In this document: positions 4,450 through 20,340 of the stretch, piece by piece | Layout: each line of letters starts with the position of its first letter | How positions within the stretch are numbered: position 1 is the first letter of the stretch | DNA from: Rhodoferax sp. | GTDB taxonomy: Bacteria > Pseudomonadota > Gammaproteobacteria > Burkholderiales > Burkholderiaceae_C | Length of the DNA stretch: 32,505 nt | NCBI GenBank assembly: GCA_025358555.1 | Contig: JANYJD010000306.1 | Coordinates: 1-32,505 of the forward strand | Reading direction: 5' to 3' | Notes under the pieces: model-generated | The model's input: only the letters and a program-made list of their open reading frames with translations | Databases searched by the model: none | Told to the model about the DNA's origin: nothing | Program-made: the position numbers and the translations under genes

Positions 4450-5289
4450 TCACCGCCCCGCATTGGGGAAAAACAATTGTTCACCTTCAATTTTGTAGCT
4501 GGCAATCACTGCCTGGCCGGGGTTTGAAGTCACCCAGTCGACAAATTTTTGCGCCTCGGCGGCTTTGACGTGCTGGTGTTTGGCCGGGTTAACAACCATC
4601 ACGCCGTATTGGTTGAACAGCCGCGTGTCGCCTTGTACCAGCACCGCCAAATTGCCCCGGTTTTTGAAACTGAGCCAGGTGCCACGGTCTGCCAGCACGT
4701 AGGCGCCGCTGCTGGACGCGATGTTGAGCGCCGGGCCCATGCCGCAACCGCATTCTTTGTAGCCTGTGCCTTTGCTGGCCGGCAGCCCCGCCAGCGCCCA
4801 GTAGCGCAACTCCGCTGCATGCGTGCCGCTTTTGTCGCCGCGCGAGATGACGCTGGCGTTGCTGGCCGACAATTTTTGAAGCGCCTCAACGATGTCTTTG
4901 CCTTTTGTTTTGGCGGGGTCGGCCGCCGGGCCAATCAGCACGAAGTCGTTGTACATCACGGGGAATCGTTTGACGGCCACGCCATCGGCCACAATCTTTT
5001 CCTCGGCTGCGGGGTCATGCACAAACAGCACGTCGGCATCGCCGCGCCGCGCCATGTCCAGTGCCTGGCCCGTGCCCAGGGCGACCACTTTCACATCGAT
5101 GCCGCTGGCCTTTTTGAATTCGGGCAGCAAGTGGCCAAACAGGCCCGACTGTTCCGTGGAGGTGGTGGATGCCATCAGGATCGTCTGAGCATGGGACAGT
5201 GCGGGAAAACTGCAAAACGCTACTATATTAATAGCTGTCCATGCACTGTGGACGAGGGCTACAGGCCTAAATGACGGGTAATTTCTCAC
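4450..5289 (-). CDS. tupA: Tungstate-type ABC transporter substrate-binding protein
   Basis: ILMASTTSTEQSGLFGHLLPEFKKASGIDVKVVALGTGQALDMARRGDADVLFVHDPAAEEKIV; GTG start at 5289 overlaps the tupC TGA stop. Confidence 0.88.
   Translation of the reverse strand: MRNYPSFRPVALVHSAWTAINIVAFCSFPALSHAQTILMASTTSTEQSGLFGHLLPEFKKASGIDVKVVALGTGQALDMARRGDADVLFVHDPAAEEKIVADGVAVKRFPVMYNDFVLIGPAADPAKTKGKDIVEALQKLSASNASVISRGDKSGTHAAELRYWALAGLPASKGTGYKECGCGMGPALNIASSSGAYVLADRGTWLSFKNRGNLAVLVQGDTRLFNQYGVMVVNPAKHQHVKAAEAQKFVDWVTSNPGQAVIASYKIEGEQLFFPNAGR
5211..5270 (+). repeat. GCTA/TAGC dispersed repeat, copy 1 (in the tupA signal-peptide region)
   Basis: cgctactatattaatagctgtccatgcactgtggacgagggctacaggcc. Confidence 0.75.
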
Positions 5290-5978
5290 GAAATCTCCTG
5301 TTTGACGAAAAAATGGGCTGCAGGGTACTGCGTTTGCAGCAATGGCCCTTCAAAAAAATTGACCGTGGGCAAATCCGCCAGCACGCGGCCCTGCTCCAGA
5401 TAGATCACGCGGGTCGCCAGGCGCTTGACCTGGCCCAGGTTGTGGCTGGCAAACACCAGCGTCATGCCGGCCGCCAGCTCGGCCAGCAACGCCTCCACCT
5501 CGCGTTTGGCATGCGGGTCCAGGTTGGCGGTGGGCTCATCCAGCAGCAGCACGTCAGGCTTGAGCACCCAGGCGCGCGCCAGCGCCAGGCGCTGCTGTTG
5601 CCCACCAGACAGCGTCCTGGCGCTGCGGCCTGCCACGCCCGCCAGCCCCACGCGCCGCAGCGCTGTGAGGGCCTGCGCCTGCGCATCGCGCCACCTCTTG
5701 CCGCGCAGCCACAGCCCCAGCGCCACGTTGTTGACGGCGGATGTGCGCAGCATGTAAGGGCGCTGAAACAGCATGGCTTGCGCTTGCGCCCCATCGTGGT
5801 GGACCTGCCCGCTTGAGGGCAGCACCAGCCCGTGCAGCAGGCGCAACAACGTGCTCTTGCCGCTGCCATTGCTGCCCACCAGGGCTACGCGCTCGCCGTG
5901 TTGAATCGCCAGGTTGATGCCAGTCAGCGCGGCCACGCGGCCGAAGCGCACATCGGCTGCCTCAACCCGGTACAACAT
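5286..5978 (-). CDS. tupC: Tungstate-type ABC transporter ATP-binding protein
   Basis: [46 protein letters not shown]; between tupB and tupA. Confidence 0.85.
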
Positions 5979-6693
5979 CGCTCACACCCGCGCCATCCTG
6001 CCGCTCACGCCAGCGTTTGAGCCCGCCCACCAGCGCGTTGAGCAGCAGCACCACACCCAGCAAAATCAGCCCCAGCGCCAACGCCAGCGGCAAGTCGCCC
6101 TTGCTGGTTTCCAGTGCGATAGCCGTGGTCATGACGCGGGTGAAGCCGTCGATGTTGCCGCCCACAATCATCACCGCGCCCACTTCGGATATCGCCCGGC
6201 CAAACGAGGCGATCAGCACGGTGAGCAGGGCATAGCGCTCGTCCCAGGCCAAAATCAAGCTGCGCAGCAATGGCCCGGCACCAAGCGAGGTGATCTGCTC
6301 GCCATGCCGGTTCTGCGCGTCTTCCACGCACTGACGTGTGAGGGCTGTGACCACCGGCAGCACCAGCAGCGCCTGCGCAATCACCATCGCCTTGAAGCTG
6401 AACAGCCAGCCCAAAAATCCCAAGGGCCCGGAGCGCGACAGCAGCAGATACACCACCAGCCCCACCACAACGGAAGGCACGGCCAGAAAGGTATTGAGCA
6501 GCGCCAGCAATGCGTCCCTGCCCGCAAACCGCACAGCGCCCAGCCAGGCACCTGCCACCAGACCAAACGCGCAGGCAAGCAGGCAGGCCGTGGCGCTGAC
6601 TGCAAGCGAGCGGCTCACGATGGCCAGCAAACCGGCGTCTGCCGAGGCGATGAGTTGAAGCGCGGTCGTGGCACTGTCAGTGAACGTGGTCAT
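5962..6693 (-). CDS. tupB: Tungstate-type ABC transporter permease
   Basis: Multi-TM protein with ...RAISEVGAVMIVGGNIDGFTRVMTTAIALETSKGDLPLALALG; ATG at 6693 (MTTFTDSATT) preferred over the longer ORF start. Confidence 0.87.
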   Translation of the reverse strand: MTTFTDSATTALQLIASADAGLLAIVSRSLAVSATACLLACAFGLVAGAWLGAVRFAGRDALLALLNTFLAVPSVVVGLVVYLLLSRSGPLGFLGWLFSFKAMVIAQALLVLPVVTALTRQCVEDAQNRHGEQITSLGAGPLLRSLILAWDERYALLTVLIASFGRAISEVGAVMIVGGNIDGFTRVMTTAIALETSKGDLPLALALGLILLGVVLLLNALVGGLKRWRERQDGAGVSDVVPG

Positions 6694-6743
6694 GGGGTGC
6701 GGTATGGTAGGGGACCCATGAATATCCTGCGATAGGCAACGCC

Positions 6744-7868
6744 GTGCATAGGCTCCAGTTCCACTACACCCTGTCAAACGACAGCGGCCCGGCGCAGGTG
6801 CGCAACCCGATGATTGACCTGCTGCAGGCCGTCTCGCAGGCTGGCTCCATATCAGCCGCAGCCCGCGCCATGAAACTGTCTTACCGCCATGTCTGGGGTG
6901 AGCTCAAGCGCTGGGAAACTGTGCTGGGCCACGAGCTCATCGTCTGGGAAAAAGGCCAAAGCGCCCGCTTGTCTGAATTTGCCAACAAGCTGATGTGGGC
7001 CGAGGCGCAGGCCCAAGCCCGCCTGGCGCCGCAGATTGAAGCTTTGCGCAGCGAGCTGGAGCGCACTTTCGCCGTGGCATTTGACGACAGCGCGCACGTG
7101 GTCACCCTGTATGCCAGCCACGACAATGCGCTGGGCCGCTTGCGGGAACACGCCCTGCACCACGGCAGTCAAGGCAAGGCGGGCCACAGAGGGCCGCTGC
7201 ACCTGGACATCCGCTTCACCGGCAGCGTGGACGCCATCCGCGCACTGAATGAAGGGCGCTGCGTGCTGGCGGGTTTTCACACGCAGCAGCACCCTGCTGT
7301 GGGCTCACTGGCCGAACGCACCTACAAGCCGCTGTTGCAGCCCGGCCTGCACAAGATCATTGGCTTTGCAGAGCGCACCCAAGGCCTGATGGTGGCGCCG
7401 GGCAATCCGCTGGCGCTGATGAATTTACAAGATGTGGCCCGCAGCGCTGCCCGCTTTGTCAACCGCGCCCTGGGCACCGGCACCCGTGTGCTGCTGGACG
7501 AGCTGCTGGCAGAGGCCGGGCTGCCAGCGGACAGCTTGAAAGGCTACGCACATACCGAGCCATCCCACACCGCAGTTGCCCAAGCCATCGCCAGCGGCGC
7601 GGCAGATGTGGGCCTGGGCATTGAGCAGGCGGCGCGATCCAAGGGCCTGGATTTTGTTGCGCTGCTGCAGGAAAACTACCACCTGGTGTGCCTCAAATCC
7701 GCGCTGGAGCAACCCGCCATTGCGGCCTTGCGCCTAGTGCTGCAAGGGCCAGCGTGGCAGCAGACGCTGGCCAACATGGCGGGCTATGCGCCGTCAGACA
7801 GCGGCCAGGTGCTGGCGCTGAGCCAGGTGCTGCCGTGGTGGGATTTTAAGAGGAAAAAGAGGCTGTAG
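6744..7868 (+). CDS. ModE-N-terminal-type HTH regulator with C-terminal periplasmic-binding-protein-like domain
   Basis: MIDLLQAVSQAGSISAAARAMKLSYRHVWGELKRWETVLGHELIVWEKG (ModE-like wHTH), then a PBP-like domain (FTGSVDAIRALNEGRCVLAGFHTQQ...GLMVAPGNPLAL...RFVNRALGTGTRVLLDELL). GTG start; divergent from tupB. Confidence 0.85.
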   Translation: MHRLQFHYTLSNDSGPAQVRNPMIDLLQAVSQAGSISAAARAMKLSYRHVWGELKRWETVLGHELIVWEKGQSARLSEFANKLMWAEAQAQARLAPQIEALRSELERTFAVAFDDSAHVVTLYASHDNALGRLREHALHHGSQGKAGHRGPLHLDIRFTGSVDAIRALNEGRCVLAGFHTQQHPAVGSLAERTYKPLLQPGLHKIIGFAERTQGLMVAPGNPLALMNLQDVARSAARFVNRALGTGTRVLLDELLAEAGLPADSLKGYAHTEPSHTAVAQAIASGAADVGLGIEQAARSKGLDFVALLQENYHLVCLKSALEQPAIAALRLVLQGPAWQQTLANMAGYAPSDSGQVLALSQVLPWWDFKRKKRL

Positions 7869-7911
7869 ACCTCATTCCACTTGCACAAGCAGCTATTAAT
7901 TTTATTGCATT
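7860..7911 (-). repeat. GCTA/TAGC dispersed repeat, copy 2
   Basis: ggctgtagacctcattccacttgcacaagcagctattaattttattgcat; overlaps the regulator stop codon. Confidence 0.65.
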
Positions 7912-8466: not shown

Positions 8467-8537
8467 AACAGGTGAGTTTATCAGTGTCTGCACAATATGC
8501 GAAATCACCTGCGGCGCTTTTAACTGTAGAATAAACT

Positions 8538-8591
8538 GGGCTGTAGCCCTTTTCCCGATTGCATCGTACGCTATCAATAATATATCAACTA
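8538..8591 (-). repeat. GCTA/TAGC dispersed repeat, copy 3
   Basis: gggctgtagcccttttcccgattgcatcgtacgctatcaataatatatcaacta; abuts the stop codon of the EgtB-like gene. Confidence 0.65.
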
Positions 8592-14212: not shown

Positions 14213-14253
14213 CTGGTGAAGACCAGCCACCGCTTCAGCGGTTTAGCCCAGCG
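14213..14253. repeat. Accessory-patch repeat, copy A
   Basis: tggtgaagaccagccaccgcttcagcggtttagcccagcg; near-match to copy B at 15412; hairpin GGCTGGT-GAAG-ACCAGCC. Confidence 0.55.
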
Positions 14254-15411: not shown

Positions 15412-15453
15412 TGGTGAAGACCAGCCACCACGTCCGCGGTTTACTGCAACGCA
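15412..15453. repeat. Accessory-patch repeat, copy B
   Basis: tggtgaagaccagccaccacgtccgcggtttactgcaacg; near-match to copy A. Confidence 0.55.
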
Positions 15454-17422: not shown

Positions 17423-17480
17423 TTACTATATATTTTGTAGCTAACTATGCACGTTGGACAAGGGCTACAGGCTATTTTTA
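17421..17480 (+). repeat. GCTA/TAGC dispersed repeat, copy 4
   Basis: atttactatatattttgtagctaactatgcacgttggacaagggctacaggctattttta between ispA and dxs. Confidence 0.75.
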
Positions 17481-18896: not shown

Positions 18897-18955
18897 AAAA
18901 GCTATGTTTTAAATAGCTAACTATGCAATATTTACTAGGGCTACAGTGCGTTTTA
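18897..18955 (+). repeat. GCTA/TAGC dispersed repeat, copy 5
   Basis: aaaagctatgttttaaatagctaactatgcaatatttactagggctacagtgcgttttat upstream of xseB. Confidence 0.75.
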
Positions 18956-20286: not shown

Positions 20287-20340
20287 ATGCTATATTTATA
20301 ATATCATTTCAAGCACTATTAGCGGGGGCTACATCTCAAT
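20285..20340 (+). repeat. GCTA/TAGC dispersed repeat, copy 6
   Basis: aaatgctatatttataatatcatttcaagcactattagcgggggctacatctcaat between two convergent stop codons. Confidence 0.65.

Follow-up and report, generated by a model that had tools for sequence, protein, structure and literature searches.

The signal-peptide core of TupA in many Comamonadaceae is encoded by a dispersed repeat and resembles the repeat variant of its own genome

The stretch of Rhodoferax sp. DNA analyzed here (contig JANYJD010000306.1, 32,505 nucleotides, hereafter the window) carries the genes tupA, tupB and tupC of a probable tungstate ATP-binding cassette (ABC) transporter. Inside the 5′ end of tupA, in frame with the gene, lies a copy of a short dispersed repeat, referred to below as the element (Table 1). 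The GTG start of tupA at 5289-5287 overlaps the TGA of tupC, as an earlier sequence-only reading of the window had proposed, and this start is borne out by the sequence, by an upstream AGGAG and by the translation. The encoded leader has the layout of a Sec signal, with a charged n-region (MRNYPSFR), a hydrophobic core beginning VALVHSAWTAINIVAF and the AxA-type site SHA followed by Q. Its best 12-residue stretch has a hydropathy of 1.9. The mature part can be aligned to the solved TupA-like proteins 3lr1 and 5my5 from residue 34-35, with matches to PDB 3lr1 (E=2.4e-65) and to the Pfam domain PBP_like_2 (PF12849). The NCBIfam TupA model matches with E=7.7e-68 and 228.7 bits against a curated cut-off of 400. 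Because this cut-off is not reached, tungstate is only the likely ligand; TupB and TupC are co-encoded in the window.

A coding-potential gene caller set the tupA start downstream of the repeat, at 5175, and repetitive extragenic palindromic sequences (REPs) at the N-termini of open reading frames (ORFs) are often a matter of misannotation (PMC3733652). If the same held here, the repeat would be extragenic and the apparent leader untranslated. We find this barely credible, since the GTG has a strong Shine-Dalgarno sequence and is homologous to the conserved start of the orthologs, and since the frame is kept in 49/50 of the repeat-bearing leaders described below. The interval between the element and the mature domain contains no in-frame start, and the sole downstream candidate, the ATG at 5175, lies inside the mature protein and would make the periplasmic binding protein leaderless.

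The hydrophobic core of the TupA signal peptide is encoded by the dispersed repeat, as confirmed at the DNA level by a masked profile and by synonymous recoding. The profile was trained on 80 genomic copies, the one in tupA being masked out; it scores that copy at 50.9 bits (E=3.6e-15), the second best of five strong matches in the window. Leaders were scored with ungapped 34-nt matrices, one per genome for 11 genomes, built from regions without tupA. For ten genomes these regions were chosen regardless of the repeat, and the genome of the window (the host) was represented by contigs with BLAST matches. Against its own genome's matrix, the host leader scores 47.2 bits, compared with 5.9 ± 7.0 and a maximum of 30.2 for 3,000 synonymous recodings drawn, as for every genome, by its codon usage. 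The real leader lies above all recodings in 10/11 genomes (P=1/3001, the floor of the test), with P=0.002 in the other. The sequence-only reading had already traced the core to the translation of a repeat, its copy 1. The repeat stands, and its extent is revised to about 5217-5275, a little longer than that copy.

Aligned copies from several genomes give an element length of about 57 bp and, in the tupA orientation, an approximate structure AAAT-GGCC-NTAGC-N21-AGCTAT-N8-ATAGC with weakly defined ends. The boxes TAGC, AGCTAT and ATAGC are near-constant, and the spacer is uniform inside one genome and differs between genera. A direct-repeat search of the window recovered copies at 5220, 17426 and 18902, and a BLAST search of the host genome with the tupA locus returned at least 40 scored matches among 263 candidates. 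Element density is 70-375 copies/Mb in the sampled DNA of the 11 genomes and about 190 copies/Mb in the sampled contigs. In the host, 51/81 copies are intergenic, though called genes make up 84% of the DNA; these position classes come from a mini gene caller, and because it set the start of tupA too far downstream, a separate search covered N-terminal cases. Among the often-open frames of the element, the tupA frame and one frame of the opposite strand are the most hydrophobic of the six. The host consensus has TAG in the tupA frame where the tupA copy has TGG, and 25/71 host copies are open in that frame. The window also holds a different direct repeat pair, at 14214-14245 and 15412-15443, which is 91% identical (TGGTGAAGACCAGCCACC...).

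The combination of universal boxes with a lineage-specific spacer could also mean that the tupA copy is kept as a site on DNA or RNA, either for a factor specific to the lineage or for translation control, with all copies co-evolving with the factor. The tupA copy sits directly after the start codon, where mRNA structure could act. However, stem pairing in leaders and copies equals the expectation from column composition, with no extra covariation that would mark a conserved hairpin, a Rfam scan of the window gave no family at the gathering threshold, and most copies lie in unrelated intergenic places. We regard a retained site of this kind as improbable.

The core of the element varies by genome, and the leaders vary with it. 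In the host, for example, the element core is GTAGCCCTTGTCCAAAGTGCATAGTTAGCTAT and the tupA leader GTAGCCCTCGTCCACAGTGCATGGACAGCTAT; in genome G033 they are GTAGCCGGCGTATTTATTGCCTAAGTAGCTAT and CTAGCCGGCGTATTTATTACCTTAATAGCTAT. Across the 11 genomes, the fit of leaders to their own genomes exceeds that of permuted pairings (p=5e-5). With the 13 BLAST-preselected host copies removed, p=2e-5, and the host leader still scores best under its own model (42.0 vs at most 30.6); with only the seven distinct-variant genomes, p=2.4e-4. Leader scores lie inside the range of the copies of their own genome and are a low outlier in 0/11 genomes. In a search of ten genomes, the 24 best matches of the Variovorax PCZ-1 leader after itself come without exception from its own genome. 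The Rhodoferax UBA5149 leader matches the variant common to its nearest relatives. At three further loci (L069, L121 and L134), element copies beside tupA have the same spacer as the leader. Where the element is abundant, the tupA leader thus behaves like any other member of its genome's repeat population.

The TupA orthologs come from relatives with whole genomes (30) and from genome contigs (80). By leader DNA, 50/105 distinct orthologs are repeat-like and 55/105 are not. The pattern FxxFRPxALVxxALxAIxxVASxxAxAQ, which is the translation of the element, can be read in many leaders of Acidovorax, Simplicispira, Paracidovorax, Rhodoferax, Polaromonas, Curvibacter, Ottowia, Variovorax and further Comamonadaceae. 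A single reading frame is used in 49/50 repeat leaders, the GCT codon of the element lies exactly 15 codons ahead of the anchor in 38/50, and the distance from start to this codon is exactly 54 nt in 21/42 leaders with an assignable start, in lineages with different spacers. The sequence-only reading had suggested that a mobile repeat joined the ORF, possibly replacing an ancestral leader. The ortholog comparison does not support a recent event particular to this genome: the element occupies the same codon position across many genera, and each leader resembles the variant of its own genome. The earlier reading is right about the source of the leader and wrong about its time scale and local character.

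Orthologs in element-free genomes have ordinary leaders, apart from three (L065, L071 and L091). These keep the amino-acid pattern, with DNA no nearer to the repeat than synonymous recodings. They are the only orthologs with the same leader but no repeat, and because their DNA is altered and the element is absent from their genomes, we read them as domesticated relics of later date rather than as a refutation of a repeat origin. A single old insertion, long domesticated and inherited vertically without later exchange with the repeats, would account for these three and for the fixed position and frame. As a general account it is highly improbable, since the leaders of element-rich genomes match their own variant at the DNA level, synonymous positions included, from which a domesticated copy would drift away.

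Leader type is associated with element abundance. Genomes with repeat leaders have 14-149 profile matches and those with ordinary leaders 0-5, except for G001 with 17 at a looser threshold; the thresholds were mixed (E <= 10 in one set, E <= 1 in others). High abundance (>=14 matches) and a repeat leader are concordant in 48/49 genomes. A generic motif count in the non-repeat loci, a small sample, revealed no unrecognized variants of the element.

What unites these observations, and what we consider the probable explanation, is an in-frame insertion of old date that gene conversion with resident copies has rewritten in place under selection on the frame. The element would have entered tupA directly behind its start codon at an early stage of the family's history, with the strand reading FRPxALVxxAxxAIxxVA supplying the hydrophobic core of a Sec signal peptide. 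The start, the Shine-Dalgarno sequence, the larger part of the n-region and the AxA site for cleavage would come from the flanks. In element-rich genomes, recombination with other copies would rewrite the tupA copy toward the local variant, while selection would hold its frame open and hydrophobic. Once the element is gone from a genome, the leader would decay to an ordinary signal peptide, three times via an amino-acid relic with altered codons. In this scheme, the data show that the element is part of the leader, that its place and frame are fixed, that leaders resemble local variants and that leader type goes with element abundance; the single old insertion, gene conversion and working export are the parts that we infer.

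The main competitor is recurrent independent insertion, in which a fresh resident copy replaced the leader at the tupA 5′ end in each lineage. The fit of leaders to local variants would follow naturally, and in its abundance and largely intergenic placement the element resembles a mobile repeat. Furthermore, the tree of mature TupA requires 17 switches between the two leader types, at least six of them on well-supported branches. Independent insertions, however, would be expected to scatter more than the shared frame and the mostly equal codon distances allow, given the different variants involved and even under selection for a signal peptide. The fixed position across lineages with different spacers favors conversion over repeated insertion, and we consider recurrent insertion unlikely, though by no means negligible. 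Leader loss accompanying the disappearance of the element, repeated gain and gene transfer may each have shaped the tree pattern, and the tree is not decisive.

Several points weigh against old insertion with later conversion, the label changes on the TupA tree among them. An imperfect homology of about 57 bp is short for ordinary recombination, and no conversion tract, conversion event or mobilizer was observed in the sampled data. The element-to-anchor distance is variable in 12/50 leaders. The supported phylogenetically independent contrasts between abundance and leader type agree in 4/4 cases, too few for significance (p=0.125), and the abundance profile was built from leaders and read through stops, so that known variants are favored and counts are rough. 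For G014 and G016 the copies are few, some of them weak matches. Leaders from Acidovorax-type genomes do not always score highest under the model of their own genome, as expected if those genomes share one variant.

The element also reaches other genes, found in a limited DNA sample (Table 1). A SIMPL/DUF541 protein (PF04402) takes its signal peptide from the opposite strand of the element in two genera, the leader frame being the element's second hydrophobic frame. With two hydrophobic frames, one per strand, used by TupA and the SIMPL protein, the repeat would be a ready source of export signals. A DUF1800 protein and the Era GTPase carry the element at their N-termini as well. In Acidovorax delafieldii, a second strong full-length leader match besides tupA was seen at G063:C2:517302-517391; it scores 47.7 bits and lies within a 356-aa open frame.

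No description of the element itself was found in open-licence papers. Like REPs and REPINs (PMC3733652, PMC3116915), it is short, high-copy, mostly intergenic and occasionally found in ORFs and at N-termini. Unlike them, it has no fixed GTAG (or CGTC) head: GTAG or CTAG occurs in one genome and CTAG or CAG types elsewhere. A palindrome kept by base pairing is likewise not seen, a perfect inner palindrome being present in the Acidovorax-type variant only, and no partner transposase of the RAYT (REP-associated tyrosine transposase) type is shown. The host Y1_Tnp gene has element copies nearby, yet sits between its own GGGGTCAGATT-type terminal repeats. As it is enclosed by its own GGGGTCAGATTCCAATTA-type repeats, we do not claim it as the mobilizer of the element. 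For REPs, gene conversion was put forward by Higgins et al. (1988, cited in PMC3116915). The BRE repeat of about 90 bp, with about 69% GC in Bordetella and 1-29 copies per genome (PMC3110155), is also dispersed in Comamonadaceae and at times lies within genes. Identity with BRE was rejected on length and GC, the element being shorter, AT-richer and, at the densities given above, far from BRE's copy numbers.

Closer in function is Yersinia RU-2, a 168-bp repeat resembling miniature inverted-repeat transposable elements, which gives the signal peptide of YPO1552 (Delihas 2007, PMC2759123; review PMC2229807). There, too, the signal peptide is repeat-derived, and it is unrelated to the signal peptides of relatives from other genera. 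YPO1552, however, is one putative protein conserved inside Y. pestis/pseudotuberculosis, whereas TupA is a recognized transporter component in many genera whose leader tracks the local repeat variant. Rickettsia palindromic elements (RPEs) are likewise short repeats inserted in frame inside conserved functional genes (cited in PMC3733652, PMC2229807), but they add peptide stretches, while the tupA element encodes most of a cleaved targeting signal. REPs have been described in ORFs, with N-terminal cases mostly regarded as probably extragenic or misannotated (PMC3733652). No account of a comparable family-wide persistence and co-evolution of a repeat-derived leader was found in open-licence papers.

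Table 1. Features of the tup locus, element copies in the window, and related features at other loci
Feature	Location	Strand	Details
tupA	4450..5289	minus	substrate-binding protein, likely tungstate ABC transporter; 279 aa; GTG start
Predicted signal peptide (residues 1-34)	5188..5289	minus	cleavage predicted between SHA and Q; mature homologs begin at residue 34-35
Shine-Dalgarno AGGAG	5295..5299	minus	5 nt upstream of tupA GTG
tupC	5286..5978	minus	ABC transporter ATPase; stop and tupA start share 4 nt (GTGA)
tupB	5962..6777	minus	ABC permease of the tungstate type; ORF taken from its earliest possible start; NF038017 exceeds cut-off; TupB model E=8.6e-52
ModE-like regulator	6744..7868	plus	divergent; helix-turn-helix plus PBP_like, from domain searches
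Element copy in frame within tupA	5217..5275	minus	encodes about residues 6-24 (or 7-25); profile match 5220-5269, E=3.6e-15; extent from consensus
Element copy, 3′ end of ModE-like gene	7855..7905	plus	E=1.3e-9
Element copy	8533..8584	plus	E=4.9e-10
Element copy	17426..17478	minus	E=3.4e-15
Element copy	18902..18953	minus	E=1e-10
Weak element copy	20290..20333	minus	E=3.5e-4
SIMPL/DUF541 protein, host	L197:9461-10186		leader LKISRLSVDIKIIAACALLTGATGTFSQ
SIMPL/DUF541 protein, G012	L174:8766-9479		leader MQRTIKTIAACALMAGAVAAYAQ
DUF1800 protein, host	L197:6574-8172		leader MINIKKVALYSLLTWASALYAAP overlaps element copy
Era GTPase, G012 and G004 (two genera)	L168:12007-13020 (G012), L259:18458-19444 (G004)		N-terminal extension from element just after start codon
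Y1_Tnp transposase gene, host	L141:1447-2157		between GGGGTCAGATTCCAATTA-type terminal repeats; element copies both sides

In-frame recruitment of small bacterial repeats has so far appeared as isolated cases, often dismissed as misannotation. Here a recognized gene carries a repeat copy across many genera, with a leader that can be compared with hundreds of copies per genome. This comparison makes two questions testable: whether gene conversion homogenizes dispersed repeats in bacteria, and how much rewriting a signal peptide tolerates without losing its function. The change of the leader from genus to genus with the local repeat points to ongoing rewriting of a functional protein segment by non-coding repeats. 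We think it fairly probable that, in Comamonadaceae, the signal peptides of certain conserved proteins destined for export, namely TupA and one or more SIMPL/DUF541 proteins, belong to the repeat population as live members, continually overwritten by non-coding copies. If so, a targeting signal would evolve in concert with the repeats of its genome rather than with its own gene.
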